Below the pieces are notes generated by a model, which was not told the origin of the DNA, did not search any database, and saw only the letters and a program-made list of their open reading frames with translations. From Pseudomonadota bacterium (lineage in GTDB: Bacteria; Pseudomonadota; Gammaproteobacteria; Burkholderiales; Thiobacillaceae), in contig JAKADC010000004.1 in assembly GCA_021820845.1 (NCBI GenBank), forward strand, positions 62,001 to 126,000: a DNA stretch of 64,000 bases, in the 5' to 3' direction. Position 1 is the first letter of the stretch, and the number at the start of each line of letters is the position of its first letter. Position numbers and translations under genes: made by a program. Of the stretch, positions 1-16,121 are shown piece after piece.

Positions 1-1
1 G

Positions 2-538
2 CTCACGGAGATCTACGGTTCGACCGAGAGCGGCCAGCTCGCCAGCCGGCGCACGACCGCGGGCCCCGCCTGGACGCTCCTGCCCGGTGTGCAGCTGGAA
101 CAGGATGCAGATGCCACGGTCGCGTGCGAGGGGCACGTCGAAGGGCGCGTCGCGCTGTCCGACGTCATCGAACTGCTGCCCGACCGGCGTTTCCTGCTCC
201 ACGGCCGTCACGCCGACGTCGTCAACATCGCCGGCAAGCGCACCTCGCTCGCCTACCTCAATCACCAGATCGCCGCGGTGCCGGGGGTGGTCGACGCCGC
301 GTTTTTTTTGCCCGAGGACGAGGCCGGCGGCGGCGTCACGCGCCTGACCGCCTTCGTCGTCGCCCCGACGCTCAGCACCGGCCAGCTGCTCGCCGCGCTG
401 CGCCGGCGCATCGACGCGATCTTCCTGCCGCGCCCGCCGATCTTCGTCGACGCGCTGCCGCGCAACGGCACCGGCAAGTTGCCGCGCAGCGCGCTGCAGG
501 CCCTGTACGCCGAGAAAACCCGCCATGCAGCCCGCTGA
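2..538 (+). CDS. Acyl/aryl adenylate-forming ligase, C-terminal part (5' end outside window)
   Basis: The window opens inside this gene; 178 residues remain. It belongs to the ANL adenylate-forming superfamily: the visible part begins with EIYGSTESG (the A5-type Y-G-x-T-E motif), continues with GRHADVVNIAGKR (hinge/A8 region) and ends with RNGTGKLPR, which carries the conserved C-terminal lysine of adenylation. In aryl-polyene clusters this enzyme (ApeH in Xenorhabdus, XanL-like in Xanthomonas) loads the aromatic starter acid onto an acyl carrier protein; the substrate is inferred from context, not from residues. Its stop overlaps the next start by 14 bp, so the genes are translationally coupled. 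The missing N-terminus prevents any comment on the start or on a fused domain. Confidence 0.85.
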   Translation, partial: LTEIYGSTESGQLASRRTTAGPAWTLLPGVQLEQDADATVACEGHVEGRVALSDVIELLPDRRFLLHGRHADVVNIAGKRTSLAYLNHQIAAVPGVVDAAFFLPEDEAGGGVTRLTAFVVAPTLSTGQLLAALRRRIDAIFLPRPPIFVDALPRNGTGKLPRSALQALYAEKTRHAAR

Positions 539-824
539 ATTCGTCTGGACCGTTGCGCCCGGCCATCCCGCCTTCCCCGGCCACTTTCCCGGCCGCCCCA
601 TCGTGCCGGGCGTCGTGCTGCTCGACCGCGCCATCCTGTTCGCGCAAACCCTGATCGAGAAGGAACCCGAACGCTGGCAAGTCGGCACGGCAAAGTTCCT
701 GAGCCCGGTGGGCCCCGGCGAAACGCTGGTCTTTTCGCTTCAACCCACGCCGCGCGGTTCGATCGCCTTCAGCGTCAAAGCCGGCGGGCGCGAGGTCGCG
801 TCGGGCAGCCTGACCGCGGCATGA
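525..824 (+). CDS. Small hotdog-fold dehydratase (FabZ/ApeI-like)
   Basis: A 99-residue single hotdog domain. Near the N-terminus (about residues 13-31) it has the FabZ-type helix region with HPAFPGHFPG followed by PIVPGV, where the histidine is the usual catalytic base of 3-hydroxyacyl-ACP dehydratases. It is much shorter than FabZ (about 150 residues), as is usual for the small dehydratase-like proteins of aryl-polyene clusters. The start is the ATG at 525, inside the end of the ligase gene, and its stop overlaps the ATG of the following acyltransferase (ATGA). The probable role is dehydration or proofreading on the growing polyene; a thioesterase role in the same fold cannot be excluded. 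Confidence 0.75.
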   Translation: MQPAEFVWTVAPGHPAFPGHFPGRPIVPGVVLLDRAILFAQTLIEKEPERWQVGTAKFLSPVGPGETLVFSLQPTPRGSIAFSVKAGGREVASGSLTAA

Positions 825-1741
825 GCGGACACGCGACGCCGGGCTGGATGCGCCAGCAGGAACGCAGCAATCTCGCCATCCTGAAGCTGATGGTGTGGAT
901 TTCGCTCACCTTCGGCCGTACGCCCGGGCGCATCGTGCTGCATGCCATCGCCCTGTATTTCACCCTGTTCGCGCCGCGCGCGCGCCGCGCCAGCCGCGCC
1001 TACCTGAAGCGCGTGCTCGGGCGCTGGGCGAACTGGGCCGACGGCTATCGCCACGTGTTCAGCTTCGCCACCACGATCCACGACCGCATCTACCTGCTGA
1101 ACGAACGTTTCGACCTGTTCGACATCGAAGTCTTCGGTGCCGAGGCGCTGCACGAGGCGCTCGCGCGGCAACCCGGCGCCATGCTGATGGGCGCCCACCT
1201 CGGCAGCTTCGAGGTGCTGCGCGCGGCGGGCCGCGGGCAGGCGGGCCTCAAGGTGGCGATGTTGATGTACGAGGAAAATGCCCGCAAGATCAACGCGACG
1301 CTCGAAGCCGTGAACCCCAGGGCGGTGCAGGACATCATCCCGCTCGGCCGCATGGAGTCGATGCTCGAGGCCCGCGACAAGCTCGAATCGGGATATCTTG
1401 TCGGCATGCTGGCCGATCGTTCGCTGGGCGACGACGCCACCGCGGACGTCCCGTTCCTCGGCGAACCCGCGCCGTTCCCGCTCGGCCCATGGCGGCTGGC
1501 GGCGATGCTGCAGCGGCCGGTCTTCTTCATGACCGGCCTCTACCTCGGCGGCAACCGCTATCAGCTGCATTTCGTGCCGCTCGCGGATTTTTCCGCGACG
1601 CGACGCGACGAACGCGACGCCGCCATCGCCGCGGCGATGCAAGGCTACGCCGATTGCCTCACCCGCTTCTGCGGGCTGGTGCCCTACAACTGGTTCAACT
1701 TTTTCGATTTCTGGCAGAAGAAAAAATGTTCCGAAACCTGA
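821..1741 (+). CDS. LpxL/HtrB-like lysophospholipid acyltransferase of the aryl-polyene cluster
   Basis: A 306-residue member of the lipid A biosynthesis acyltransferase family. The HX4(E/D) catalytic dyad is visible as GAHLGSFE, with His126 and Glu131. The N-terminal stretch of about residues 15-50 is hydrophobic and basic, as in HtrB/MsbB proteins that sit on the inner face of the cytoplasmic membrane. Neighbours are a dehydratase and a LolA-like protein, all overlapping or within a few bases, so it is read as the enzyme that esterifies the polyene acyl chain to a lipid or glycan carrier rather than as a housekeeping lipid A enzyme. That assignment is inference from context. Confidence 0.8.
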   Translation: MSGHATPGWMRQQERSNLAILKLMVWISLTFGRTPGRIVLHAIALYFTLFAPRARRASRAYLKRVLGRWANWADGYRHVFSFATTIHDRIYLLNERFDLFDIEVFGAEALHEALARQPGAMLMGAHLGSFEVLRAAGRGQAGLKVAMLMYEENARKINATLEAVNPRAVQDIIPLGRMESMLEARDKLESGYLVGMLADRSLGDDATADVPFLGEPAPFPLGPWRLAAMLQRPVFFMTGLYLGGNRYQLHFVPLADFSATRRDERDAAIAAAMQGYADCLTRFCGLVPYNWFNFFDFWQKKKCSET

Positions 1742-2295
1742 TCGCCGGCGTCGCCCTCGCAAGCCTTGCGGCGACGGCGCACGCCGCCTTCAACATCGAC
1801 CAGTTGATGGCCGGGCTCGCGCAGCACCCCGGCGGCCGCGCGAAGTTCGTCGAGAAGCGCACCCTCGCCGTGCTCGACCGTCCGCTCGTCGCCACCGGCG
1901 AGATGACCTACACGCCGCCCGACCGGCTGGAAAAGCGCACCCTGACGCCCCGGCCCGAGACCCTCGTGCTCGACCGCGATCAGGTCAGCATCGAGCGCGA
2001 CAAGCGCACCTACACGATCAACCTCGCCAGCCGTCCGGAAGCGCTGGCGTTCGTCGACAGCATCCGCAGCACGCTCGCCGGCAATCGCGCCGCGCTCGAG
2101 AAGAACTACACGCTGCAACTGGCCGGCAGCAGCGAGCACTGGGTGCTGACGCTGACGCCCACCGCCCAGCGGATCGCGACCCTGCTGCAGCGCATCACGG
2201 TCAGCGGCGCCGGCGACCAGATCCGCACCATCGACTACCTGCTGGCCGACGGCGACCGCTCCGAACTCACCATCGAGCCGCTCGACCCGCGATGA
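1726..2295 (+). CDS. LolA-like periplasmic outer-membrane lipoprotein carrier protein
   Basis: A 189-residue protein with a clear signal peptide (MFRNLIAGVALASLAATAHA, cleaved after AHA) followed by a LolA-type half-barrel pattern: a glycine-rich lead-in (residues about 30-36), then KFVEKRTLAVLDRPLVATG and repeated beta-strand charge patterns. LolA-related proteins are standard members of aryl-polyene clusters (ApeL) and are thought to carry the lipid-linked pigment across the periplasm to the outer membrane. The ATG at 1726 lies 16 bp inside the end of the upstream acyltransferase, and the stop overlaps the start of the exporter gene (ATGA), which supports one translationally coupled operon. 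Confidence 0.8.
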   Translation: MFRNLIAGVALASLAATAHAAFNIDQLMAGLAQHPGGRAKFVEKRTLAVLDRPLVATGEMTYTPPDRLEKRTLTPRPETLVLDRDQVSIERDKRTYTINLASRPEALAFVDSIRSTLAGNRAALEKNYTLQLAGSSEHWVLTLTPTAQRIATLLQRITVSGAGDQIRTIDYLLADGDRSELTIEPLDPR

Positions 2296-4625
2296 CCCGA
2301 GTCGGCTGGCGCACCCTGCTGCTGTGGTCGCTCGCCATGCTGGCGGGGGCCGCCGTGGTCTGGAACAGCCGTTTTTCGGCCGACATCTCTTTTTTCCTGC
2401 CGGCGCGGCCCACCGCCGAGCAGCAGATCCTCGTCGACCAGCTCAAGGAAGGCGCGGTCTCCCGCCTGCTGATGCTCGCCGTCGAAGGCGGCGACGCCAC
2501 GCAGCGCGCCCGCATGTCGCGCGATCTGCAGAGCCGGCTCGCGGCACTGCCCGAATTCGCCTCGGTGCAGAACGGCGGGACGAGCGGCGAGAACGCCGCG
2601 CGCGATTTCCTGCTCAGGCATCGCTACCTGCTGAGCCCGGCGGTGACGCCGGAGCGCTTCACCGTCGCGGGCCTCAATGCCGCGATTTCGAGCAGCATCG
2701 ACCTCCTCGCCTCGCCGGCCGGGATGCTGCTCAAGCCCACGCTGACGCGCGACCCGACCGGCGAACTGGTCGAACTGGTCGGCGGCCTCGACGCCGGGGC
2801 GGAGCCCGCGAGCCGCGACGGCGTGTGGGCCTCGCGAGACGGGAAGCGCGCGCTGCTGCTGGTGCAGACCCGCGCGCTCGGCTCCGACACGGACGGCCAG
2901 GAACGCGCCATCGCGCTGATCCGCGCCCAGTTCGCCGCCGCGTCCGACAGCGCAGGACTCGGCGCGCTCAAGCTTGAGCTTTCCGGCCCCGGCCTGTTCG
3001 CCGTCAACTCGCGCGCGACGATCAAGCACGAGGTCACGCGCCTGTCGCTGATCAGCCTCACCGCCATCATCGCCGTGCTGCTGTTCGTCTATCGTTCGCC
3101 ACGCGTGCTGCTTCTCAGCCTGCTGCCGGTCGCCAGCGGCGCGCTGGCCGGCATCGTCGCCGTCAGCCTCGTCTACGGCACGGTCTACGGCATCACCGTC
3201 GGCTTCGGATCGGCGCTGATCGGCGAGGCCGTCGACTACGCGATCTACTACTTCGTGCAATCCGGCCGGCTCGGCCTCGACAACTGGCGCCAACGCTACT
3301 GGCCGACGATCCGGCTCGGCGTGCTGACGTCGGTGTGCGGCTTCGCCGCGCTGCTGCTGTCCGGCTTCCCCGGACTGGCGCAACTCGGCCTGTACGCCCT
3401 GAGCGGCGTGCTCGCCGCCGCGCTCGTCACGCGCTTCGTGCTGCCGCCGCTCGCCGGCGCACCGGCCCAGATCCCGGTGTCGGCGCGCATCGGCAACGCG
3501 CTGCACGGCGGGCTGCGCCGCGTGCGGATCCTGCGCGCACCCGCCGCGGTCCTGGCACTCGCGGCCTTCGCCTACCTGGCGGTGCAGCGCCACGAATTGT
3601 GGCTGCCCAACCTCTCGGCGCTGTCCACCGTGAGCGCCGAAGACGCTACGCTCGACACGCGGCTGCGCGCCGACCTCGGCACCCCCGACGCGCGCTACCT
3701 CGTCGTCGTCACCGCACCGGACCGCGAAACCGCGCTGCAGACGGCCGAGCGCGCGGGCCGGCGGCTCGATCGCCTGGTTGCCGACGGGGTGATCGACGGC
3801 TACGACAGTCCGGCGCGCTTCCTCCCAAGCGCCGCGACGCAGGCAGCGCGGCGCGCGAGCCTGCCGCCGGCCGACGAACTGCAGCGTCGGCTGCAGGCGG
3901 CAGTCGCCGGGCTGCCGCTGTCGGCCGGCAAGCTCGCGCCGTTCGTCGCCGACGTCGCGTCGGCCCGCGAGGCGCCGCTCCTCGACCGCCGCGCGCTCGA
4001 CGGCAGCGGGCTCGCGCTCGCCGTCGATTCATTGCTGCTGCACGGCGCCAACGGCTGGAGCGCGCTGTTGCCGCTGCGGCCCGCCGCCGGCGCCCCGACG
4101 ACCGACATTCCGGCCGCGACGGTGCGCGCGGCGCTGGCGGGCAGCGGCGCGCTGTTCGTCGACACCAAGGGCCAGTTCGACGCGCTCTACGGCGACTACC
4201 TCCAGCAGGCCGTCTGGCTGTCCTCCGCGGGCTTCGTCGCCATCGTCGTGCTGCTGCTGGCGGCGCTGCGTTCGCCGCGCCGCCTCGCCGGCGTGCTGCT
4301 GCCGCTCGTGCTGGCGGTCACCCTCGTCATCGCCGGGCTGCACCTCGCCGGCGAGCGCCTGCAGCTGCTGCATCTGGTCGGCATGCTCCTGATCGTCGCC
4401 GTCGGCTCCAACTATGCGCTGTTCTTCGACCGCAACACCGGCGGCGCCGAACTCGACACCGCCACGCTGATGTCGATGGCCGTCGCCGCCACGACCACCG
4501 TGATCGGCTTCGGCACGCTCGCCCTGTCCTCCGTCCCGGTGCTGCACGCCATCGGCGTCACCGTCGGGCCGGGCGCCCTGCTTGCGCTGCTGCTGTCGGC
4601 GGCATTCGCGTCGCACGAGGCCTGA
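2292..4625 (+). CDS. MMPL/RND-family exporter
   Basis: A 777-residue membrane protein with the two-fold MMPL layout: one N-terminal transmembrane helix (about 8-25), a large periplasmic loop (about 30-250), a bundle of hydrophobic helices (about 255-385), a second single helix (about 415-432), a second loop and a final bundle (about 635-770). The first bundle contains GSALIGEAVDYAIYYFV and the second GSNYALFFDRN, the paired charged/aromatic sites of this family. In aryl-polyene clusters an MMPL protein (ApeM, XanF) moves the finished product out of the inner membrane, probably handing it to the LolA-like protein encoded just upstream. The start overlaps the previous stop by 4 bp. Confidence 0.85.
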   Translation: MTRVGWRTLLLWSLAMLAGAAVVWNSRFSADISFFLPARPTAEQQILVDQLKEGAVSRLLMLAVEGGDATQRARMSRDLQSRLAALPEFASVQNGGTSGENAARDFLLRHRYLLSPAVTPERFTVAGLNAAISSSIDLLASPAGMLLKPTLTRDPTGELVELVGGLDAGAEPASRDGVWASRDGKRALLLVQTRALGSDTDGQERAIALIRAQFAAASDSAGLGALKLELSGPGLFAVNSRATIKHEVTRLSLISLTAIIAVLLFVYRSPRVLLLSLLPVASGALAGIVAVSLVYGTVYGITVGFGSALIGEAVDYAIYYFVQSGRLGLDNWRQRYWPTIRLGVLTSVCGFAALLLSGFPGLAQLGLYALSGVLAAALVTRFVLPPLAGAPAQIPVSARIGNALHGGLRRVRILRAPAAVLALAAFAYLAVQRHELWLPNLSALSTVSAEDATLDTRLRADLGTPDARYLVVVTAPDRETALQTAERAGRRLDRLVADGVIDGYDSPARFLPSAATQAARRASLPPADELQRRLQAAVAGLPLSAGKLAPFVADVASAREAPLLDRRALDGSGLALAVDSLLLHGANGWSALLPLRPAAGAPTTDIPAATVRAALAGSGALFVDTKGQFDALYGDYLQQAVWLSSAGFVAIVVLLLAALRSPRRLAGVLLPLVLAVTLVIAGLHLAGERLQLLHLVGMLLIVAVGSNYALFFDRNTGGAELDTATLMSMAVAATTTVIGFGTLALSSVPVLHAIGVTVGPGALLALLLSAAFASHEA

Positions 4626-4628
4626 CGC

Positions 4629-5429
4629 ATGGCGCGGCCCTGGAAACCCGTTCCCGCGCTGAAGGCAACCGCCGCCGTGCACGGCGCCGCCGCGCTCGGG
4701 ACGCTGGCGGTTCCCGCCGCGTGGCCGTGGGCGCTCGGCGCGGTCGCCGTCAACCATGCCGTGCTGACCCTGGCCGGCCTGCTGCCGCGCTCGACGCTGC
4801 TCGGCCCCAATCTGACCCGGCTGCCGCACGCCGCCGCAGCGCGCCGCGAAGTCGCACTCACGGTCGACGACGGCCCCGATCCCGACGTGACGCCCCGCGT
4901 GCTCGACCTGCTCGACGCCGCCGGGATCCAGGCCAGCTTTTTCTGCATCGGCTGGCGCGCCCGCACGTACCCCGGGCTTTGCCGCGAAATCGTCGCGCGC
5001 GGCCACCGCGTCGAAAACCACAGCGATTCGCATTCGCTCGTCTTTTCCACGTTCGGCCCCCGCCGCATCGAAGCCGAGATCGCCGCAGCGCAGGCCACCC
5101 TCGCCGACATCACCGGCGAGGCGCCGCGTTTCTTCCGCGCGCCGGCCGGTCTGCGCAACCCGTTCCTCGATCCGGTGCTGGTCGCCCTCGACCTCAGGCT
5201 CGCGGCCTGGACCCGCCGCGGCTACGACACCCGCGAAGCGCGGCCGCGCGTCGTACTCGGCCGCCTGGTGCGGAACCTCGGCGCGGGCGACATCCTGCTG
5301 CTGCACGACGGCCATGCCGCGCGCACGCCGGAAGGTCTGCCGGTCGTCCTTGCCGTCCTCCCGCCCTTGCTGCGCATGCTCGACGAGCGGGGATTGAAGC
5401 CCGTCACGCTGGCCGACGCGCTGGCATGA
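4629..5429 (+). CDS. Polysaccharide deacetylase (NodB domain), membrane anchored
   Basis: A 266-residue protein with two hydrophobic segments at the N-terminus (about residues 22-55) followed by a complete NodB homology domain: TVDDGPD at 78-84 (catalytic Asp and metal-binding Asp), HSDSH at 131-135 (metal histidines), FRAPAGLR, and LLHDGH near the end. Family 4 carbohydrate esterases remove N- or O-acetyl groups from glycans. It starts 3 bp after the exporter stop, so it belongs to the same transcript. A deacetylase is not one of the core aryl-polyene enzymes I recall; here it may process a sugar carrier of the pigment. The biochemical family is clear, the substrate is not. Confidence 0.8.
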   Translation: MARPWKPVPALKATAAVHGAAALGTLAVPAAWPWALGAVAVNHAVLTLAGLLPRSTLLGPNLTRLPHAAAARREVALTVDDGPDPDVTPRVLDLLDAAGIQASFFCIGWRARTYPGLCREIVARGHRVENHSDSHSLVFSTFGPRRIEAEIAAAQATLADITGEAPRFFRAPAGLRNPFLDPVLVALDLRLAAWTRRGYDTREARPRVVLGRLVRNLGAGDILLLHDGHAARTPEGLPVVLAVLPPLLRMLDERGLKPVTLADALA

Positions 5430-5452
5430 GGCGGCCGCGGGCGCCGCTCTGC

Positions 5453-5475
5453 TAGAATTTTCGATTCTTCGAATC
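5453..5475 (+). promoter_or_regulatory. Possible internal promoter (-10 TAGAAT) and small palindrome before the ketosynthase
   Basis: Between the deacetylase stop (5429) and the ketosynthase GTG (5488) lies the only intergenic gap of the plus-strand cluster. It holds a -10-like TAGAAT at 5453-5458, followed by the palindrome GATTC-TTC-GAATC at 5463-5475. A convincing -35 is not seen. It could allow the ketosynthase-ketoreductase half of the operon to be transcribed on its own. Confidence 0.35.
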
Positions 5476-5487
5476 CGGGCGCCCATC

Positions 5488-6678
5488 GTGACCCCGCTGC
5501 TGCTTTCCGCCTACACCGCCACCACCTGCCTCGGCCGCGGCCTCGACGCCGCCCGGCACGCCCTGCACGCCGGCCGTAGCGGCCTCGCGCCGTGCGCCTT
5601 CGAGACGGTGAAGCTCGACACCTGGGTCGGCGAGGTCGCCGGGGTCGACGACGAAAAGCTGCCCGCGCGTCTCGCCGACTACGACTGCCGCAACAACCGG
5701 CTGACGCAGATGGGGCTGGAGACCGACGGCTTCGGCGACCGGGTGAGGGAAGCCGTCGCGCGCCACGGCAAGGCCCGCGTCGGCGTGTTTCTCGGCACCA
5801 GCACGTCGGGCATCCTCGAGACCGAAATCGCCTACCGCCACCGCGATCCGGCAAGCGGCGCGCTGCCCGACGGCTTCAACTACCGCACGACGCACAATTC
5901 CTTTTCGCTCGCCGAATTCACCCGCGCCTATTTCGGGCTCGAGGGCATGGCGGTGGCGATCTCGACCGCCTGCTCGTCGAGCGCCAAGGTGTTCGCCGCC
6001 GCCGCGCGCCAGATCGAACTGGGCCTGATCGACGCGGCCATCGTGGGCGGCGTCGATACCCTGTGCCTGACCACGCTCTATGGCTTCGCCTCGCTGCAAC
6101 TCACCTCGCCGCGGCCCTGCCGGCCGTACGACGCGACGCGCGACGGCATCTCGATCGGCGAAGGCGCCGGCTTCGCACTGCTCGAGCGCGCCGACAACGC
6201 CGCGCCCGGCTCGGTACTGCTGCTCGGCGCCGGCGAGTCGAGCGACGCCTACCACATGTCGTCGCCGCATCCCGAAGGCCTCGGCGCACGACTGGCGATG
6301 GAAGCCGCGCTGCGCTCCGCCGGGCTCGCGCCGGACGACATCGGCTACATCAACCTGCACGGCACCGCGACGCCGGCCAACGACGCCGCGGAGGGCAAGG
6401 CCGTCACCGCGCTGTTCGGCGACCGCGTGCCCTGTTCGTCGACCAAGGGCGCCACCGGCCACACGCTGGGCGCGGCCGGGGCGATCGAAGCCGTCATCTG
6501 CGCGCTCGCGCTGGCCGACGGTGTCCTGCCGGGCAGCCCGGGCACCGCGGCGCGCGATCCGGCGATCTCCGTGCAGTACCTGCTCGAGAGCCGCGCAACG
6601 GCGGTGCGCCGCGTGCTGTCGAATTCCTTCGGCTTCGGCGGCAGCAACTGCAGTCTCGTCTTCGGGGTCGCCGCATGA
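5488..6678 (+). CDS. Beta-ketoacyl-ACP synthase (FabF-like, ApeO-type) of the polyene synthase
   Basis: A 396-residue condensing enzyme with the full FabF catalytic triad: Cys162 in STACSSSAK, His291 in NLHGTATPANDA and His325 in KGATGHTLGAAGA, plus the C-terminal glycine-rich SNSFGFGGSN. It elongates the aryl-polyene chain with malonyl-ACP. The start is a GTG at 5488. Its 3' end overlaps by 4 bp the gene for a chain-length-factor-like partner; in Xenorhabdus the equivalent ApeO and ApeC proteins work as a heterodimer, which is the natural expectation here. Confidence 0.9.
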   Translation: MTPLLLSAYTATTCLGRGLDAARHALHAGRSGLAPCAFETVKLDTWVGEVAGVDDEKLPARLADYDCRNNRLTQMGLETDGFGDRVREAVARHGKARVGVFLGTSTSGILETEIAYRHRDPASGALPDGFNYRTTHNSFSLAEFTRAYFGLEGMAVAISTACSSSAKVFAAAARQIELGLIDAAIVGGVDTLCLTTLYGFASLQLTSPRPCRPYDATRDGISIGEGAGFALLERADNAAPGSVLLLGAGESSDAYHMSSPHPEGLGARLAMEAALRSAGLAPDDIGYINLHGTATPANDAAEGKAVTALFGDRVPCSSTKGATGHTLGAAGAIEAVICALALADGVLPGSPGTAARDPAISVQYLLESRATAVRRVLSNSFGFGGSNCSLVFGVAA

Positions 6679-7475
6679 ATTCGCCGCTGCACGCCTGGAT
6701 CGAAGGCATCGGCTTTCTCGCGCCGGGTCTTCCGGACTGGCCGGCTGCGCGCGCGGTGCTGCGCGGCGAGCAGTCGTACGCCGCCGCGCCGTCGATCCTG
6801 CCGGCGCCGTCCCTCCTGCCGCCCGCCGAGCGGCGCCGTGCGAGCCGCGTGGTCAAGACGGCGCTGGCCATCGGCCTGGAAGCGGTCGCCCACGCCGGTG
6901 CCGACGCCTCGCAGCTGGCGACCGTGTTCGCCGCGTCCGGCGCCGACGGCCACAACTGCCATGCGCTGTGCGAACAGCTCGCGGGCGACGACCGCCAGAT
7001 CTCGCCGACGCGCTTCCATAATTCGGTGCACAACGCCGCCGCCGGCTACTGGGGCATCGCCACGGGGTCGATGGCGCCGTGCCAGGTGCTCTGCGCCTAC
7101 GACGCGAGCTTCGGTGCCGGCCTTCTCGACGCCCTCGCGCAGGTGGCGCTCGAACGCCAGCCCGTGCTGCTGATCGCCTACGACAGCGAATATCCCGAGC
7201 CGCTGCACGCCAAGCGCACCATCCCCGATTGCGGCGGCGTCGCCCTGCTGCTCGCCGCCGAGCGCAGCGCGCGGGCGCTGGCGTCGATCCGCGCCGTGCC
7301 GACAAATGACGCGGCCGACACGCTGGCCGACGCCGCGCTGGAGGCGCTGCGCGCGGGCATCCCGGCGCTGCGCGCGCTGCCGCTGCTGGAGCGGCTGGCG
7401 AACGCGGCGCGCGGCAGCGTCTGCCTCGACTATCTGCGCCCGATGCAGCTGAAGGTGGACATCGAACCGTGCTAG
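6675..7475 (+). CDS. Ketosynthase-like chain length factor (ApeC-type)
   Basis: A 266-residue protein of the 'ketoacyl-synt_2' type, corresponding to the N-terminal half of a thiolase-fold condensing enzyme. The position equivalent to the active-site cysteine loop reads LCAYDASFGAGL, without the ACSSS signature of the partner ketosynthase, so it should be catalytically inactive and act as the non-catalytic half of a heterodimer that sets chain length. ATG at 6675 overlaps the ketosynthase stop. The next gene begins 7 bp before its stop. Confidence 0.8.
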   Translation: MNSPLHAWIEGIGFLAPGLPDWPAARAVLRGEQSYAAAPSILPAPSLLPPAERRRASRVVKTALAIGLEAVAHAGADASQLATVFAASGADGHNCHALCEQLAGDDRQISPTRFHNSVHNAAAGYWGIATGSMAPCQVLCAYDASFGAGLLDALAQVALERQPVLLIAYDSEYPEPLHAKRTIPDCGGVALLLAAERSARALASIRAVPTNDAADTLADAALEALRAGIPALRALPLLERLANAARGSVCLDYLRPMQLKVDIEPC

Positions 7476-7918
7476 ACCGCGCCTGGATCGCCGCCCACAT
7501 CCCGCATCAGGGCGACATGTGCCTGCTCGATGCGGTGCTGGAATGGTCGGACGCCATGATCGTCTGCCGCGCCACGAGCCACGCCGACCCCGCCAATCCG
7601 CTGCGCGCCGAAGGACGGCTGGGCGCCGCCGCCGGCATCGAGTACGCGGCGCAGGCGATGGCGGTGCACGGCGCGCTGATCGCGGGTGACGACGCGCCGC
7701 CGCGCCAGGGTTATCTCACCAGCGTGCGCAGCGTGGCGCTGCACGTGCCCCGCCTCGACGACGTCGCCGGACCGCTCGACGTGCGCGCCGAGCGGCTGTC
7801 GGGCGACGGCAACCACATCCTCTATCAATTCTCGCTCGACCACGCCGGCCGTTGCCTCGTCGAAGGCCGCGCCGCAGTGGTACTCGACGCCAGCACCCTG
7901 CAAGGAAACAACCCATGA
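7469..7918 (+). CDS. Hotdog-fold 3-hydroxyacyl-ACP dehydratase (ApeP-type)
   Basis: A 149-residue hotdog protein with PHQGDMCLLD near the N-terminus (His13 is the expected catalytic histidine) and a central helix EYAAQAMAVHGAL. Proteins of this group dehydrate the 3-hydroxyacyl-ACP intermediate in polyene chain extension, leaving a trans double bond that is never reduced. The start is GTG at 7469, overlapping the chain-length-factor gene by 7 bp; the stop overlaps the ketoreductase ATG (ATGA). Confidence 0.8.
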   Translation: MLDRAWIAAHIPHQGDMCLLDAVLEWSDAMIVCRATSHADPANPLRAEGRLGAAAGIEYAAQAMAVHGALIAGDDAPPRQGYLTSVRSVALHVPRLDDVAGPLDVRAERLSGDGNHILYQFSLDHAGRCLVEGRAAVVLDASTLQGNNP

Positions 7919-8634
7919 AACGCGCCCTCGTCACCGGCGGCAGCGGCGGCATTGGCGCCGCGATCGCCAAGCGCCTCGCCGCCGACGGCCACCATGTCAT
8001 CGTCCACGCCAACCGCGGGCTCGACCGCGCCGAAGCCGTCGCCGCGGCGATCCGGGCGGCAGGCGGCAGCGCCGAGGCAATCGCCTTCGACGTCACCGAC
8101 CGCGCCGCCACGGCCGCCGCGCTCGAGACGCTGCTCGAAGGCGGCGCCATCCAGATCCTGGTCAACAACGCCGGCATCCACGACGACGCGGTGTTTCCCG
8201 GCATGTCGGGCGAGCAGTGGGACCGCGTGATCGACGTCTCGCTGAACGGATTCTTCAACGTCACCCAGCCGCTGACGCTGCCGATGATCCGCACGCGCTG
8301 GGGCCGCATCGTCAACGTGTCTTCGATCGCCGCGATCGCCGGCAACCGCGGCCAGGTCAACTATTCGGCCGCCAAGGGCGCGCTGCATGCGGCGAGCAAA
8401 TCGCTCGCGCTGGAACTCGCCAGCCGCGGCATCTCGGTCAACGTGGTGGCGCCCGGCATCATCGCGACCGGCATGATAGACGGCGCGTTCGATGCCGACG
8501 CGATCAAAAAGCTGGTGCCGATGCAGCGCGCCGGCCAGCCGGAGGAAGTCGCCGAACTGGTCGCCTTCCTCGCGTCCGACAAGGCGGCCTACATCTCCGG
8601 GCAGGTGATCTCGATCAACGGCGCGCTGATCTGA
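7915..8634 (+). CDS. 3-oxoacyl-ACP reductase (FabG-like, ApeQ-type)
   Basis: A 239-residue classical short-chain dehydrogenase. NADP-binding TGGSGGIG lies at residues 7-14, NNAG follows the central strand, Ser137 sits in NVSSIAAIAG, and Tyr150/Lys154 in YSAAKGA complete the catalytic set. It reduces the 3-keto group after each condensation. No enoyl reductase follows, as expected for a pathway that keeps the double bonds. It is the last gene of the plus-strand operon and ends 12 bp from the convergent antiporter gene, with no room for a separate terminator. Confidence 0.88.
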   Translation: MKRALVTGGSGGIGAAIAKRLAADGHHVIVHANRGLDRAEAVAAAIRAAGGSAEAIAFDVTDRAATAAALETLLEGGAIQILVNNAGIHDDAVFPGMSGEQWDRVIDVSLNGFFNVTQPLTLPMIRTRWGRIVNVSSIAAIAGNRGQVNYSAAKGALHAASKSLALELASRGISVNVVAPGIIATGMIDGAFDADAIKKLVPMQRAGQPEEVAELVAFLASDKAAYISGQVISINGALI

Positions 8635-8646
8635 CCGCGTTGCCGC

Positions 8647-9846
8647 TCAGGCGGCGCGACGGACCAGGGCCTGCAGCCGCGCCAGCTTCGGCGCCACCAT
8701 CGGCACCGTGAGCATCGTGCTCGCGACCGCCATCAGCAGGAGTGCGGTGAAGGTTTCGCTGCTGATGATCCGTTTGTCGAGCAGGATGTTGACGAAAATG
8801 ATCATGATCAGCGCCTTGGTCTGCAGCAGCCAGCCGATGACCGACGCCTCGCCCGGTGCCCAATGCAGGATGCGGCCGGCAATTCGGAGGCCGATCAACT
8901 TGCCGGCGACCGAGGCGACCAGCAGCAGCGCCGCCGCGAGAAAGACCGCCTCGCCGCCGACGCTCCAGTTGGTGCGCAGCCCCGTGGAGAGGAAGAACAC
9001 GGGCATGACGACCAGCAGGACGTGGTGGCGCAGCAGGTCCATCTTTTTCTGGTCAAACCATTCGGCTTCCATGATCGCGCCGGCGAGAAAGGCGCCGACC
9101 ATGAAGTGCAGCCCGGACCAGTCGGCGCCGAACGCGCAGACGGCCAGCCAGATCAGCGCGACGTACCAGCGGTCGTGCTCGGCGAGGCGAGCCATCAGGC
9201 GGCGGAAGAGATAGCCGGCCACGGCGAAGACGGCGAGGAAGGCCAGCTGCCTGCCGACGCGTTCCCAATCCATCAGGATCATCGCCAGCACGCCCCAGAT
9301 CGCGACGTCGTCGAGGCTGGCGTAGCGCAGGATGCGTTGCCCGATCGGCTGGCGCAGGACGTCGAGCTTTTCCATGAGCAGGATCAGAATCGGCAGCGCG
9401 GTCACCGCGCACGCCATGCCGACGCCGAGCACGAACTGCCAGGTCATCGCCTGCGGCCCCGTCCAGCCCTCGAAACCGAGCAGCACGGCCGCCGCCGCGC
9501 AGCCGAACACCAGCGGCGTACCGAGCGCGAGGCCCGCCGTGATGCCGGACTCGCGCCGGTGCGCCCAGACCTTCTTCAGGTCCAGTTCGACGCCGGCGAT
9601 CATCACGAACAGCATCACCGCCCACCAGGCGATGCCGGTCAGCGACTGGATGACGGCCGGATTGAAGACCAGGTTGTAATAGTCGGGAAACGCACGGCCG
9701 AGGATGCCCGGCCCGAGGAGGATGCCGGCGATGATCTGCACGACCACCAGCGGCGCGTAGTAGTCCATGTTGCCGAGGCGCCACAGCAGCCACGGCACGG
9801 TGAAGATGATCGTCATCGCGATCAGGAAGGTCTCGGCGGTGCTCAT
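8647..9846 (-). CDS. CPA2-type cation:proton antiporter
   Basis: A 399-residue integral membrane protein with about a dozen hydrophobic segments typical of Kef/NhaP-like monovalent cation:proton antiporters; DDVAIWGVLAM and the region around AGVELDLKKVW resemble the conserved transmembrane core with acidic ion-binding residues. No TrkA-N domain follows, so it is the membrane part only. Its ATG overlaps the methyltransferase stop (ATGA), so it is translated with the pigment operon. Its role there is unknown; energising export or balancing pH are guesses. Confidence 0.78.
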   Translation of the reverse strand: MSTAETFLIAMTIIFTVPWLLWRLGNMDYYAPLVVVQIIAGILLGPGILGRAFPDYYNLVFNPAVIQSLTGIAWWAVMLFVMIAGVELDLKKVWAHRRESGITAGLALGTPLVFGCAAAAVLLGFEGWTGPQAMTWQFVLGVGMACAVTALPILILLMEKLDVLRQPIGQRILRYASLDDVAIWGVLAMILMDWERVGRQLAFLAVFAVAGYLFRRLMARLAEHDRWYVALIWLAVCAFGADWSGLHFMVGAFLAGAIMEAEWFDQKKMDLLRHHVLLVVMPVFFLSTGLRTNWSVGGEAVFLAAALLLVASVAGKLIGLRIAGRILHWAPGEASVIGWLLQTKALIMIIFVNILLDKRIISSETFTALLLMAVASTMLTVPMVAPKLARLQALVRRAA

Positions 9847-10613
9847 GCCTTGCGGCCGGTGTATTCGCGGAAGATGCCCAGCGTGACCGAGCAGTTCACG
9901 TCGGAAAAGCCGGCGCGCCGCATCGCGTCGAGGATGCGCGCGGGTTCGAGCGCGGCCTCGATGGTGTCGCCGTAGTATTCCCACAGCCGCTTGACCTCGC
10001 CCTGGCTGCGCGTGAGGCGAGCAAGCAGCGGGACGACGACGCGGATATGAAAGCGCATCAGTACCCGCGCCAGGCGGCTCGCCGGCCGGCTGATTTCCAT
10101 GATGCACAGGCGCCCGCCCGAATTCAGCACCCGCAGATACTCGGACAAGGCGCTGTCCAGGTCGCCGACGTGGCGCAGCGCGTAGCCCATCGAGACGAAG
10201 TCGACGTGGTCGTCGGGGAGGGGAATCGATTCGGCGTAGGCCTCGAGGGTTTCGACGGCGACCTTCTTGCGCAGCTCGGCGAGCATGCCGGGCGAGGGGT
10301 CGAGCGCGACGACCCGGCCGCTCGCGCCCACCAGCTCGTGCGCGGCGACGGTCACGAGCCCAGTGCCGGCGGCCGCGTCCAGCAGGGTCATGCCGGCAGC
10401 GAGGCCGTTTCGGCGCAGGACTTCGCGCCGGTACCACGCGCCGCTCCCCAGCCCGGTGAGCTTCTCCGCGCGGTCGTAGGCGGGTGCGGCGTGGTCGAAC
10501 ATCTCGCGGGTGACGGCACGCCGCTCCTCCTCGTCGGAAAAATAGGCCGACAGGCGGGGATCGGGTTTCAGCGCCCCGCGGCGGGGCGTGGTTTCGTTCA
10601 CGGGGCGTGTCAT
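9843..10613 (-). CDS. SAM-dependent methyltransferase (UbiE/Coq5-like)
   Basis: A 256-residue class I methyltransferase. Motif I reads LLDAAAGTGLVTV, followed by VVALDPSPGML (motif II acidic residue) and SMGYALRHVGD. UbiE-like enzymes methylate quinone rings, but this gene is coupled on both sides to pigment genes (start overlaps the glycosyltransferase stop, stop overlaps the antiporter start), so methylation of the aryl head group of the polyene is the more likely job. I chose the ATG at 10613; the frame remains open further upstream but only inside the glycosyltransferase gene. Confidence 0.8.
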   Translation of the reverse strand: MTRPVNETTPRRGALKPDPRLSAYFSDEEERRAVTREMFDHAAPAYDRAEKLTGLGSGAWYRREVLRRNGLAAGMTLLDAAAGTGLVTVAAHELVGASGRVVALDPSPGMLAELRKKVAVETLEAYAESIPLPDDHVDFVSMGYALRHVGDLDSALSEYLRVLNSGGRLCIMEISRPASRLARVLMRFHIRVVVPLLARLTRSQGEVKRLWEYYGDTIEAALEPARILDAMRRAGFSDVNCSVTLGIFREYTGRKA

Positions 10614-11377
10614 GGCGCAGACCTCACAAGACGCCGCACGAGCAGCAGCGGCAGGCGCAGCACGAAACCGACGAACAGCCGCGTGTGCATCCACGTCAGC
10701 AGCACGTTGTCGCGCAGGTATTTGAAGTGCGACACGCCGCCTTCCTCGGCGCTGAGATAGCGCACCGGCGCGTCGAGATTGATCGGCCGCACGCCGGCCC
10801 AGCACAGGCGGACGACGGCTTCCGGATCGAAGTCGAAGCGGCGCATGAAAGGGTGATGCCGCATGATGCGGACGAGGGGCGCGATCGGATAGACGCGAAA
10901 ACCGTACAGCGAATCGCCGATCCCCATCCACAGCGTTTCCAGGTCGGCCCAGGCGTTCGAGATCTTGCGGCCGCCGACGCGCAACGCCGGCGCCTCCGGT
11001 CCGAACACGGGCTTGCCCAGGATCATCGCGTGCGGATCGGCCTGCGACGCCGCCATGAACCGGGGAATCAGCCCGGCCGGATGCTGGCCGTCGGAATCCA
11101 TCGTCAGCACATGCGTGAAGCCGGCGGCCGCAGCCGCCTCCATGCCGGTCAGCACCGCCGCGCCCTTGCCGCGATTCTGCGGCAGCACGATGACGCGCAG
11201 GCCGTCATCGTCGGCAGCGAGCGCCTGCAAGGGCGCCGCCGTGCCGTCGGTGCTGCCGTCGACGACGACCCACACCGGCGTCCACTGCGCGCGCGCCGCC
11301 CTGACCGTATCCAGCACGCGGAGGCCCGGGTTGTAGCTGGGAATCAGGACGAGATGGGTCGACGAGGCTGCGCGCAT
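10610..11377 (-). CDS. Family 2 glycosyltransferase
   Basis: A 255-residue GT-A fold glycosyltransferase. The N-terminus has LVLIPSYNPGLRVLDTV, then VVVDGSTDGT (nucleotide-binding), QNRGKGAAVLTG and the DxD-type metal site MDSDGQHP. The last 30 residues are hydrophobic and basic, suggesting a membrane-associated C-terminus. The layout resembles dolichyl-phosphate mannose synthase-like and ApeJ-type enzymes of aryl-polyene clusters. It lies 4 bp after the acyltransferase stop and overlaps the methyltransferase start, so it is in the same operon. The sugar donor is not predictable from the sequence. Confidence 0.82.
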   Translation of the reverse strand: MRAASSTHLVLIPSYNPGLRVLDTVRAARAQWTPVWVVVDGSTDGTAAPLQALAADDDGLRVIVLPQNRGKGAAVLTGMEAAAAAGFTHVLTMDSDGQHPAGLIPRFMAASQADPHAMILGKPVFGPEAPALRVGGRKISNAWADLETLWMGIGDSLYGFRVYPIAPLVRIMRHHPFMRRFDFDPEAVVRLCWAGVRPINLDAPVRYLSAEEGGVSHFKYLRDNVLLTWMHTRLFVGFVLRLPLLLVRRLVRSAP

Positions 11378-11381
11378 GGTT

Positions 11382-12149
11382 TCAGATGACCGTGGCGGAG
11401 GGGCCCAGTTCCGTGCGGAAATACGTCTCGAGCTCGGTCGTGAAGGCGGACAGGTCGGCCGGCGGCGGAAAGCGCCGGCCGCGGCGCACGCGGAACGACA
11501 GCGGCAGCTCGGGGCGCCGCCAGAGCGGCCAGGACTTGCCCAGGTAGGGCGTCGAAAATTCGATCAGCAGCGTCTGCACGGGCACGTTTGCGCGGCTGGC
11601 GAGAAGGCCGGCCGCCGGCTGGCAGGCGTCGATCGGGAAGCGCACGGTGCGCGTGCCCTCGGGAAAGATCACCAGATGCGCCCCTTGCCGCAGCGCTTCG
11701 CGCGCCTTCAGGATCATTTCCAGCGGCGCATCGTTGCGGATGTAGCCGGCAAGGCGTGCCGCGGAGCCGAACAGGATGTTGTCGAGCAGGCTCGCCTTCA
11801 TCACGCAGACGGCGTTCGGCAGGCGCGAGGCGATCATCACCGCGTCGAGCAGCGACGGATGATTGGCGGCGACGATCAGCGGACCCTCCTCGCGCAGGCA
11901 GTCGAGGTCGGCAAGGTCGAAGCGCGCGCCGCACAGCCACGTCAACAACGCGAGGTAGGCGCGGAAACCAAGCGAGATCGCCGCGCGCCCGAGTGGCTGT
12001 CCGACGCGGCGCGGCAGCAGCGGATGGAGCAGCATCGCGAAAGGCAGCCAGGCGAGACAGATCGCGGCCAGCATGCCGAGGCCGAGCAGCATGGCGAAGG
12101 TTTCGTAGGCGGCCCACAGCGGGTGGCGCGCGGGCAAGGGCTCGGTCAT
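11382..12149 (-). CDS. 1-acyl-glycerol-3-phosphate acyltransferase-like (PlsC family)
   Basis: A 255-residue PlsC-domain protein with an N-terminal transmembrane segment (about 18-45), the NHPSLLD version of the HX4D motif and FPEGTR, both diagnostic for glycerolipid acyltransferases. Together with the family 2 glycosyltransferase next door it is the likely enzyme pair that builds the lipid or glycolipid anchor of the pigment. The ATG at 12149 is preceded by an 88-bp gap after the chorismatase stop, the only real gap of this operon. Confidence 0.83.
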   Translation of the reverse strand: MTEPLPARHPLWAAYETFAMLLGLGMLAAICLAWLPFAMLLHPLLPRRVGQPLGRAAISLGFRAYLALLTWLCGARFDLADLDCLREEGPLIVAANHPSLLDAVMIASRLPNAVCVMKASLLDNILFGSAARLAGYIRNDAPLEMILKAREALRQGAHLVIFPEGTRTVRFPIDACQPAAGLLASRANVPVQTLLIEFSTPYLGKSWPLWRRPELPLSFRVRRGRRFPPPADLSAFTTELETYFRTELGPSATVI

Positions 12150-12237
12150 CCGCGCGCCCGCCGCCCGCGAACGGAACCGGCACGAGGCCGACGTGCGATC
12201 GCGCGTCTCCTCGCCGCGGCGGTCCGGCTCGCGGCCA

Positions 12238-13242
12238 TCAGTCGTGCTCCATGGGGTGCGAGGCCATCGCCTCGATCTCGAGCAGCAGGTCGGCGCGGCA
12301 GATGTCGGCCTGCACGTAGAGCACGCCCCCCGCGCCGAGATGCGGCGCCAGCGCGTCGCGAATCGCGGGAAAATCCGCCGCATGACGCACATAGACGCGG
12401 CACGCGAGTTCGTCGAGGGCGAACGGCCGCGAGCGCGCCGCGCGATTCGCCTCGGCGACGACCGAGCCGACGTTGGCCAGCGCCTCGCGGCACTGCCCGG
12501 CGACGTCGCCGGGGTGGACGGTCCGGTAGCCGACGATGCTGGCGGTGCCGGAGATGAACAGGATCTCCTGGCCGGGCGGACGGACCAGCGCGCCGCGCGA
12601 GAAGATCGGCGCGCGCGGTCCGTATTCGGCCGGGTAGTCGCATGCGCTGACCTGGCGCGGATTCTCGATCGACACCGCAGGCGTCGCCCCGGCGAGAAAA
12701 GCGATCGACAGCGGGCCGCCCGCGAGGCCGAGCGCGCACGCCGCCGGTGCGTTTCCGGCGGCGCTGCGCCGGTGGGCGATGAACGCGTCCTGGCGGCCGA
12801 CGTTGAACTGGCGATAGCGTTCGAGCCCGTGCGTCTCGGCGTTGATGTCCGCCATGTAGTTCCAGATGCGCCACAGGTGCGGCAGGTTCTGCGCGTCGAG
12901 CAGCCGGAAGATGCGATGGTACGCGGCTTCGCTGGCGGCCTGCAGCGGCGGGCGTTCGGCGGCCGCATCGAACCCGGCTTCGTCCAGATCGATGACGCCG
13001 AACAGGATATCGCCGCAGCGCCGCCACGCGATCCCCTCGCTCGCGCCGTGCACGCACGGACCCGCGGCCTGCCAGGTTTCCTCGAAGGCGGGCGCGGGCG
13101 CCCCGAGAAGCGGCGCGCGCACCGCCTGGATGGGCCATCCGGTCGCGGGGGCCGACACGGCCGGCCCGAGCAGGACCGCGCCCAGATCGCTTTCGGAATG
13201 GCGCCCGGCGGGCACCGGCGAGAGACGGAATCGCAGCGTCAC
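12238..13242 (-). CDS. Chorismatase / hydroxybenzoate synthase (XanB2/Hyg5-FkbO family)
   Basis: A 334-residue protein matching the XanB2 family in length and motifs: HLWRIWNYMADIN in the middle, and QADICRADLLLEIEAM at the C-terminus. Family members split chorismate to pyruvate plus 3-hydroxybenzoate (Hyg5, XanB2, which also gives 4-hydroxybenzoate) or a dihydroxy-cyclohexadiene carboxylate (FkbO). A cysteine (Cys315) seven residues before the presumed catalytic Glu322 fits the hydroxybenzoate-forming subgroup as I recall it. The start is GTG at 13242, overlapping the halogenase stop (GTGA). It should supply the aryl starter for the ligase at the left edge of the window. Confidence 0.82.
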   Translation of the reverse strand: MTLRFRLSPVPAGRHSESDLGAVLLGPAVSAPATGWPIQAVRAPLLGAPAPAFEETWQAAGPCVHGASEGIAWRRCGDILFGVIDLDEAGFDAAAERPPLQAASEAAYHRIFRLLDAQNLPHLWRIWNYMADINAETHGLERYRQFNVGRQDAFIAHRRSAAGNAPAACALGLAGGPLSIAFLAGATPAVSIENPRQVSACDYPAEYGPRAPIFSRGALVRPPGQEILFISGTASIVGYRTVHPGDVAGQCREALANVGSVVAEANRAARSRPFALDELACRVYVRHAADFPAIRDALAPHLGAGGVLYVQADICRADLLLEIEAMASHPMEHD

Positions 13243-14576
13243 GGCGCGCTGTTCAGGGCCGGGTCGTCGACCGCGCGGATATTGAAGCGGCGCTCTTTCC
13301 AGGCCATGTAGGCGCGCTTCGGCTGGAAGACGTTGGCGAGGTAATAGAGCCCCTTGAAGGCCCAGATCGAGCGCCAGATCGGTGTGGTGCCGAAGATGTC
13401 GCCCGCCAGCACCGACAGCAGCGCCTCCTTCACGCGGAAGACGTTCTTCGGGCCCATGAAGAAGTCGCGCATGATCGGATTGGTGATCCGGTAGATGAAC
13501 CAGGAAAACTGCTTCGGCCCGAGCCGCATCAGCGCGTCGAAGCGCTTCAGCGCGGCGGGCGCGGCGGCGGGATTCTTGAGGCAGGCGTCGACGGCGTCGG
13601 CGCCGATCACGCCGCTGTTCATCGCCAGCCATACCCCCGACGAGAACACCGGATCGATGAACGCATAGGCGTCGCCGAGCAGCAGATAGTTGCGTCCGTG
13701 GGTGCGCTCGGCGACATACGAGAAGTTGCCGGTCGCCTCGACCTCGGTCAGGAGGCGCGCATCCTTCAGCCGCTGCGCGAGTTCGGGGCAGCCGCCGACG
13801 TTGTCCAGGAGAAACTGCTGCAGGCTGCGCGTGCCCTTGGTTTTCATGTGGTACGGCCAGGTCACCATGCCCACGCTGGTGGTGTCGTTCATCATCGGGA
13901 TGAACCAGAACCAGCCGTGGTCGAACCAGAAGATCGTGATGTTGCCCTCGTCGCGGCCCGCGTGGCGGCGCGCGTGCGCGAAATGGCCGTAGACCGCCGA
14001 ACTGTTGTGCTTCGGGTTGCGGTGCTTGATCTGGAAGCGGCGCGCCAGAAAGGTGTCGCGCCCCGACGCGTCGACGACGAAACGCGCCTGCCATTCGGCT
14101 TCGCGGCCGTCGTCGTGGCGCGCGTGCACCAGCGCCGTGTCGTCCGGCAGGAAATCGACCGCGTTCACCTTGCAGCCCTGGTGCACCTCGACGCCTTTAC
14201 TGCCGGCGTTGCGGATCAGGATCTCGTCGAATTCGGCGCGCCGGACCTGGTAGGCGTGGGGCATCGACTTGTCCCACGCGTCGGCGAAATGGAAGACCTG
14301 CGTGCGGCCGTGGTACGGCGACACGAATTCGGCCGCCCATTTTTCCATCCCGATCGCCTTCATTTCCGCGGCCACGCCGAGCCGTTCGAACAGCGGCAGA
14401 TTGGCCGGCAGCAGCGACTCGCCGATGTGGAAACGCGGATGGCGCGCCTTTTCCAGCATCACCACGCGGTAGCCCTTTTCGGCCAGCAGCGGTGCGACGG
14501 TCGATCCGGCAGGCCCGCCGCCGATGACGAGCACATCGCACTGGTGTCGCTCTCGTGTCTGTTGTTGCCGTTCCAC
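13239..14576 (-). CDS. Flavin-dependent halogenase-like oxidoreductase
   Basis: A 445-residue FAD enzyme. It has the dinucleotide fold GGGPAGS at 19-25, HIGESLLP, a lysine at 79 (MEKWAAEF) in the position of the halogenase catalytic lysine, WFWFIP at 222-227, which matches the halogenase hallmark WxWxIP, and GDAYAFIDPVFSSGV as the second FAD motif. This supports chlorination or bromination of an aryl group rather than simple hydroxylation, although monooxygenase activity is not excluded. The frame is open to a TTG at 14591, but the GTG at 14576 has a good ribosome-binding site (AAGGTG at 14582-14587) and is preferred. Xanthomonadins are brominated aryl polyenes, so the gene fits the cluster. 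It is the first gene of the minus-strand operon. Confidence 0.82.
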   Translation of the reverse strand: MERQQQTRERHQCDVLVIGGGPAGSTVAPLLAEKGYRVVMLEKARHPRFHIGESLLPANLPLFERLGVAAEMKAIGMEKWAAEFVSPYHGRTQVFHFADAWDKSMPHAYQVRRAEFDEILIRNAGSKGVEVHQGCKVNAVDFLPDDTALVHARHDDGREAEWQARFVVDASGRDTFLARRFQIKHRNPKHNSSAVYGHFAHARRHAGRDEGNITIFWFDHGWFWFIPMMNDTTSVGMVTWPYHMKTKGTRSLQQFLLDNVGGCPELAQRLKDARLLTEVEATGNFSYVAERTHGRNYLLLGDAYAFIDPVFSSGVWLAMNSGVIGADAVDACLKNPAAAPAALKRFDALMRLGPKQFSWFIYRITNPIMRDFFMGPKNVFRVKEALLSVLAGDIFGTTPIWRSIWAFKGLYYLANVFQPKRAYMAWKERRFNIRAVDDPALNSAP

Positions 14577-14656
14577 AGGCTCACCTTTCAAATAGCGTTC
14601 CCGCGCGGCGGAGGGGATGCCGCCGCCGCGTGCGGGCCCCTTCGCGGGGTGGCGGA

Positions 14657-14671: not shown

Positions 14672-16121
<1,450 letters not shown>

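Follow-up and report, generated by a model that had tools for sequence, protein, structure and literature searches.

A probable single-locus arcuflavin/xanthomonadin-type aryl-polyene cluster with a halogenase-class gene in a Thiobacillaceae genome

Here, we describe a probable aryl-polyene pigment cluster in a 64,000-nucleotide stretch of a Thiobacillaceae genome, positions 62,001 to 126,000 of contig C3 (JAKADC010000004.1), which we call the window. The genome comprises 2.85 Mb in 24 contigs and is 99.98% complete. Genes were called by translating open reading frames and by scanning the proteins of the window and its flanks with Pfam and NCBIfam models. The plus operon starts ~3.2 kb upstream of the window, in a stretch designated L003 (L003:8755 corresponds to about window position -3245), and runs to 8634. 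It encodes, in order, an acyl carrier protein (ACP), a FabF-like ketosynthase (KS), a second ACP, a membrane protein in the ApeG position, a ligase, dehydratase 1 (DH1), an HtrB-type acyltransferase, LolA, an MMPL exporter, a NodB-type deacetylase, a further KS, a chain-length-factor (CLF)-like protein, dehydratase 2 (DH2), and a ketoreductase (KR). The minus operon (14576-8647) encodes a halogenase-class protein, a chorismatase, a PlsC-type acyltransferase, a GT2 glycosyltransferase, a methyltransferase, and an antiporter (Table 1). The operon ends lie 12 bp apart (8634 versus 8647), and neighboring genes within each operon overlap or are separated by at most 88 bp. Thus, the two convergent operons proposed by a first-pass annotation of the window can be taken literally. 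Every gene class named in that annotation is present and in frame where it was placed, DH2 by position only. The annotation confined the cluster to 1..14591, however, whereas the ligase crosses the window edge and the operon begins well before it, and the inventory omitted the HtrB-type acyltransferase.

Table 1. Genes of the cluster and the adjoining argB-like gene; positions refer to the window unless prefixed L003
Gene product	Position	Strand	Evidence or remark
ACP1	L003:8755-8994	+	outside window; first gene of plus operon
FabF-like KS	L003:8998-10251	+	outside window
ACP2	L003:10270-10554	+	outside window; NF006617 139.9 bits vs cut-off 70
ApeG-position membrane protein	L003:10551-11198	+	outside window; no Pfam or NCBIfam match
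Aryl-acid ligase, ArcT/ApeH-like	1..538 (C-terminal part; full gene L003:11195-12538)	+	AMP-binding 8.2e-18, AMP-binding_C 7.5e-6
DH1, FabA/ApeI-like hotdog	525..824	+	FabA 4.5e-7, over cut-off; ApeI-like 3.1e-6, slightly below cut-off
HtrB/lipid-A-type acyltransferase (arcR place)	821..1741	+	Lip_A_acyltrans 1.1e-13
LolA-like periplasmic carrier	1726..2295	+	LolA_3 1.6e-22
MMPL/RND-type exporter, ArcP/ApeM-like	2292..4625	+	MMPL 8.4e-13
NodB-type polysaccharide deacetylase	4629..5429	+	Polysacc_deac_1 1.7e-27; motif-like TVDDG, NHSDSH, RAPAG, LLLHD
KS, ArcK/ApeO-like	5488..6678	+	NF006618 558.4 bits vs cut-off 407
CLF-like truncated KS, ArcJ-like	6675..7475	+	Ketoacyl-synt_2 8.6e-26; solved chains 7f28_A 7e-8, 6qsp_B 7e-6
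DH2 (arcI place)	7469..7918	+	position between CLF and KR as in arc list
KR, FabG-like	7915..8634	+	NF004200 366.5 bits vs cut-off 273; last gene of plus operon
CPA2-type Na+/H+ antiporter, arcG-like	8647..9846	-	Na_H_Exchanger 3.5e-29; last gene of minus operon
UbiE-like methyltransferase	9843..10613	-	Ubie_methyltran 7.5e-29
GT2 glycosyltransferase	10610..11377	-	Glycos_transf_2 2.8e-22
PlsC-type acyltransferase, arcD-like	11382..12149	-	Acyltransferase 4.9e-15
FkbO/Hyg5/XanB2-type chorismatase	12238..13242	-	FkbO_Hyg5-like_N 1.5e-39; TIGR04444 233.8 bits, below cut-off 325
Flavin-dependent halogenase-class protein, ArcA-like	13239..14576	-	Trp_halogenase 4.9e-30, over cut-off; GGGPAG, Lys79, WFWFIP
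argB-like amino acid kinase	14672-15556	-	beyond halogenase; argB is our own label

Judged by its likeness to characterized systems, the locus is very probably a single-locus aryl-polyene cluster of the arcuflavin/xanthomonadin type. Gene content, gene order, conservation, the clade of the halogenase, and its active-site residues are what the analysis provides directly. Specifically, the polyketide synthase (PKS) genes of such clusters are present: a ligase, a KS with a truncated CLF-like partner, a KR, dehydratases (DH2 by position), and ACPs. The MMPL exporter, LolA, a glycosyltransferase, and a PlsC-type acyltransferase, which would serve export and anchoring, likewise all lie in the cluster. 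The chorismatase is of the FkbO/Hyg5/XanB2 type. Aligned to solved chains, it shares Gly and Cys with 5ag3, which we take to be Hyg5, at two sites where FkbO (4bps) has Ala; these sites presumably separate 3-hydroxybenzoate (3-HBA)-forming from FkbO-type chorismatases. The Gly/Cys pair recurs in 50 of 53 chorismatase alignments to related loci, and the remaining three do not span both sites. In the Azoarcus arc system, 3-HBA was detected only in assays containing the chorismatase ArcB, and the ligase ArcT adenylated 3-HBA; the same report cautions that the product of a chorismatase is not accurately predictable from its sequence (PMC3949708). A yellow membrane pigment is the product class to be expected of such gene sets.

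The first-pass annotation had proposed a xanthomonadin-like cluster making a hydroxybenzoate-primed polyene that is halogenated, methylated, and loaded onto a lipid or glycan. The gene list of arc and the core order of the Escherichia coli ape cluster agree with a hydroxybenzoate-primed cluster of the xanthomonadin/arcuflavin type that includes genes for lipid anchoring and an enzyme of the halogenase class. The accompanying suggestion that the gene set and order were unrecorded does not survive. Because arcN and arcG appear in the published Azoarcus list (PMC3949708), the deacetylase and the antiporter are known cluster members, and most of the gene order recurs in many betaproteobacterial loci. 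The cluster is complete, of a known kind, and ordinary in its parts and order. Could it be a plain E. coli-type ape cluster, building a methylated, halogen-free polyene on a 4-hydroxybenzoate primer? The core order is common to both, yet the chorismatase, halogenase, deacetylase, and antiporter found here are absent from the ape table (PMC8253772), making this reading very unlikely. We give still less credence to an arcuflavin-like pigment, esterified with a dialkylresorcinol, which the shared cluster type of Azoarcus arc would favor. Arcuflavin proper involves darA and darB, and DarB would presumably match PF08541. The sole PF08541 match of the genome lies between plsX-like and fabD-like frames (by eye), as befits housekeeping FabH; darA was not searched for. 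Since this is the only beta-ketoacyl-ACP synthase III of the genome and reads as FabH by context, a resorcinol ester is not expected, and we set it aside.

The gene set is widespread among bacteria. Among 150 genomes of the same order, its own included, 24 contain a halogenase match at 1e-40; 17, again counting its own, have an orthologue (at least 51% identity), and the matches of the other seven reach at most 37%. Twenty-seven genomes match the CLF, including two with weak matches (1e-13 and 1e-15), and 16 genomes possess both the CLF and the halogenase orthologue (hypergeometric 1.5e-13, without correction for relatedness). In genome G135, which lacks a CLF match, the halogenase lies at a locus that retains the chorismatase, PlsC, GT2, KR, and DH2 genes; conversely, a halogenase orthologue is missing from 11 of the genomes with the CLF. 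This pattern ties the halogenase to the polyene genes but makes it dispensable to them, as expected for a tailoring function. At least 588 halogenase relatives exist in the named collection, and the best 80, with at least 62% identity, were taken for locus counts. Fifty-four of those 80 loci extend at least 9.9 kb past the halogenase. Counting matches of at least 35% identity anywhere in the locus, GT2 and PlsC occur in all 54, CLF in 46, DH2 in 45, KR in 44, KS in 38, the chorismatase in 37, the antiporter in 29, the methyltransferase in 27, and the deacetylase in 26, with distal genes often lost at the 10-kb locus limit. The order from ACP1 to argB is the same in two metagenome-assembled genomes (MAGs): one of Hydrogenophilales (JACPYT010000014.1, 79,111 bases), with extra stretches of ~1-3 kb between KR and antiporter and between halogenase and argB, and one titled Thiobacillus denitrificans (DHHQ01000017.1, 192,907 bases), with such a stretch between KS and deacetylase. 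The present cluster, complete and of arcuflavin type, places this one-locus arrangement in a lineage near Thiobacillus MAGs. A different layout is seen in Hydrogenophaga and relatives (loci L055, L058-L061, L067), which have the halogenase, PlsC, and GT2 genes and no chorismatase match; a second protein, ~25% identical to the halogenase, is encoded just upstream of it (frames viewed for L055).

If the arc, xan, and ape systems are taken as models, from which every reaction step is inferred, the cluster could operate as follows. The chorismatase would make 3-HBA, which the ligase would load onto an ACP. The KS/CLF pair, KR, and two dehydratases would extend this primer into a conjugated polyene, and the methyltransferase would O-methylate the ring. 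The halogenase-class flavoprotein would halogenate the aryl end, perhaps the adjoining chain too, if halide is present. GT2, the NodB-type deacetylase, the PlsC- and HtrB-type acyltransferases, and a neighboring PAP2 protein would build an amino-sugar phosphoglycerol-like anchor onto which the polyene is loaded, and MMPL and LolA would carry the product to the outer membrane. Our guess for the antiporter is ion or proton balance during export. With respect to the anchor, the deacetylase retains all four motif-like stretches given in Table 1, read against what we take to be the NodB motif patterns, and the best NCBIfam match of the GT2 is a polyprenyl-phospho-GalNAc synthase model, albeit a weak one (50 bits versus a cut-off of 370). 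Xenorhabdus aryl-polyene lipids reportedly carry a galactosamine-phosphate-glycerol group. Taken together, these three points make an amino-sugar anchor the most likely use of the GT2, deacetylase, PlsC, and PAP2 proteins; the genes for the deacetylase, GT2, and PAP2 would then take part in anchor assembly and not be bystanders.

Is the halogenase-class protein a halogenase? Counting from the GTG at 14576 as the start, WFWFIP occupies residues 222-227 and Lys is residue 79, just as first annotated. The NCBIfam CmlS and QhpG models match the protein, both below their cut-offs. We built a tree of 39 rows and chose two UbiH-type proteins from the same genome as its root; the outgroup branches are long. 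The 22 cluster-linked proteins group in a single clade (support 99/99), with the solved halogenases 8zop, 3e1t, 5buk, 5dbj, 7fco, and 5bva as neighbors. The single QhpG-family row and the two UbiH-type rows fall outside the halogenase clades. A position inside the non-halogenating FAD oxidoreductases, the outcome that the first-pass annotation had named as contrary to its claim, was not observed, and this placement argues against a UbiH/QhpG-type hydroxylase. Lys79 and WxWxIP are found in 22/22 clade rows and in 80/80 of the best loci. The halogenase is about as well conserved as the KS (89 versus 88% identity in one relative, 82 versus 87% in another). Furthermore, a structure search with an AlphaFold model (15 sequences, mean pLDDT 84.0) returned halogenases in all of rows 1-8, with FasV, CndH, ChlB4, CmlS, and PltA first. 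K79, A82, E83, and F84 are invariant in 80/80 of the best loci. K-x-x-A-E-F was nonetheless rejected as a family-wide signature, because A82 and E83 vary in five more distant tree rows (Ala82 to Val in L010, L012, and L018; Glu83 to Gln in L017 and to Val in L019). Only Lys, Phe, and the shorter loop before Lys are conserved in all 22 clade rows.

A halogenated product is likely. Xanthomonas clusters that hold a halogenase gene yield brominated pigment, and Lysobacter, without the gene, makes a non-brominated one (PMC3691225). The pigment of Steroidobacter 35Y, whose xanthomonadin cluster comprises 14 genes, is dibrominated; the main text names no halogenase (PMC5979037). In Azoarcus, fed 4-fluoro-3-hydroxybenzoate gives labeled arcuflavin, and ArcT accepts 4-substituted benzoic acids (PMC3949708); thus, a 4-halogenated primer is chemically usable. 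Xanthomonadin I carries one bromine on the ring and another on the adjoining chain.

Several findings weigh against this overall interpretation. Arcuflavin was reported as C41H52O4, with no halogen, although arcA is annotated as a halogenase (PMC3949708). The Lys/WxWxIP signature is not specific to halogenases: it is also present in 7/7 uncharacterized "other" tree rows and in 3nix. The motif consequently marks the superfamily and is no proof of halogenation. Nor is the fold such proof: in the structure search, 3nix (function unknown) appears from row 9 onward, and its target TM-scores are the highest among the 50 rows listed. The branching order among halogenase clades is not resolved, with the split from the QhpG row supported at 93/89. 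Elsewhere in the cluster, Pfam and NCBIfam scans assigned no family to DH2 or to the ApeG-position protein, and the amino-sugar anchor draws in part on the Xenorhabdus analogy.

These points bear on whether the cluster instead makes a non-halogenated pigment, with the halogenase-class protein idle for want of halide or acting as a monooxygenase or other oxidase on the polyene. The halogen-free arcuflavin is in keeping with this possibility, as are the dihydroxylating activity of QhpG, a monooxygenase of the same superfamily, and the clade-specific loop, which in 22/22 clade rows has one residue fewer ahead of Lys than in the seven solved chains of the tree. However, the QhpG row carries Arg in place of Lys and WxWxSP in place of WxWxIP, whereas every clade row and every one of the best loci keeps Lys and Ile; bromination follows the presence or absence of the gene in Xanthomonas and Lysobacter; and conservation close to that of the KS argues against a relic. 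On balance, we consider a non-halogenated pigment somewhat doubtful. The arcuflavin-producing Azoarcus cells were grown in lysogeny broth (PMC3949708), and scarce bromide in that medium is one possible reason for the missing halogen. It is a less likely, though not negligible, prospect that the arc-type flavoproteins constitute a separate family doing something other than polyene halogenation, or halogenating only conditionally; this would explain the intact motifs in the best 80 loci despite a halogen-free arc-type product. We continue to favor a halogenated polyene. An intact halogenase gene in many aryl-polyene clusters, set against halogen-free arcuflavin, makes more pointed a question that the 2014 Azoarcus study left behind.

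Regarding the upstream neighbors, a gene for a PAP2-family membrane protein (L003:7990-8649, minus strand) lies just upstream of, and divergent from, the plus operon. The protein is found at 43-59% identity in 14 of the best 80 loci, and in three relatives, namely G111 and the two MAGs, its gene is the immediate neighbor of ACP1. It may be an overlooked cluster member. Farther out, ~5.5-10 kb upstream of the window (L003:1956-6498), are genes for an RpfG-like receiver-HD protein, an RpfC-like hybrid kinase with Hpt domain, and an RpfF-like crotonase, possibly a diffusible signal factor-type signaling locus. The RpfF-like protein scores above the PRK08788 cut-off and below that of the RpfF equivalog model. 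The order purC-rpfG-rpfC-rpfF-tauE-EVE-PAP2 is retained in two near relatives, and RpfF was found in 3/10 genomes searched, those of L029, L093, and L070 (the last titled Rhizobium sp.). We rejected the rpf genes as cluster members: they lie beside the cluster in two near relatives, and none occur in two G111 stretches.

How does the cluster compare with known systems? At the enzyme level, FasV (8zop), CndH (3e1t), PltA (5dbj), ChlB4 (7fco), Mpy16 (5buk), and CmlS (3i3l) share the fold of the window halogenase, and the first five, which are tree rows (CmlS is not), share its Lys and WxWxIP. The solved halogenases differ in their 28-34% identity in structure alignments, their separate clade, and their one additional residue before Lys. 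Our literature search, with subscription journals mostly outside its coverage, found no characterized enzyme of this halogenase clade among the papers listed.

At the cluster level, the Xanthomonas xanthomonadin clusters, compared by description, have a XanB2-type chorismatase, a type II PKS, and a halogenase gene, as here (PMC3691225); a brominated product is reported for Xanthomonas, and for the window cluster a halogenated one is predicted. The Steroidobacter 35Y 14-gene cluster likewise combines a XanB2-type chorismatase with a type II PKS (PMC5979037). The Lysobacter enzymogenes cluster shares the KS/CLF pair, the two dehydratases, and a DPM-synthase-like gene beside KS/CLF but, unlike the window cluster, has no halogenase gene; the same paper had already remarked on halogenase genes beside the KS/CLF pair in other genomes (PMC3691225). 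E. coli ape shares the order ACPs, ApeG-position protein, ligase, dehydratase, acyltransferase, LolA, RND exporter, KS, dehydratase, KR, and its table lacks the four additional genes named above (PMC8253772).

The closest match is the arc system of Azoarcus sp. BH72, published in 2014, in which disruption of arcK or arcT yields colorless strains (PMC3949708). Azoarcus arc occupies two unlinked loci and makes a halogen-free dialkylresorcinol ester, whereas the window cluster occupies one locus and no DarB-like gene was found in the genome; arcC, arcF, arcL, and the arc regulators were not found inside the window cluster. The published list comprises arcA (halogenase), arcB (chorismatase), arcD, arcE, arcG (antiporter), arcH (KR), arcI (dehydratase), arcJ, arcK (KS), arcM (methyltransferase), arcN (deacetylase), arcP (exporter), arcQ (LolA), arcR, arcS, arcT (ligase), and arcV (ACP) (PMC3949708). 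Compared gene by gene with that list, the window cluster shares the halogenase, chorismatase, acyltransferases, glycosyltransferase, antiporter, KR, two dehydratases, CLF-like protein, KS, methyltransferase, polysaccharide deacetylase, exporter, LolA, ligase, and ACP.

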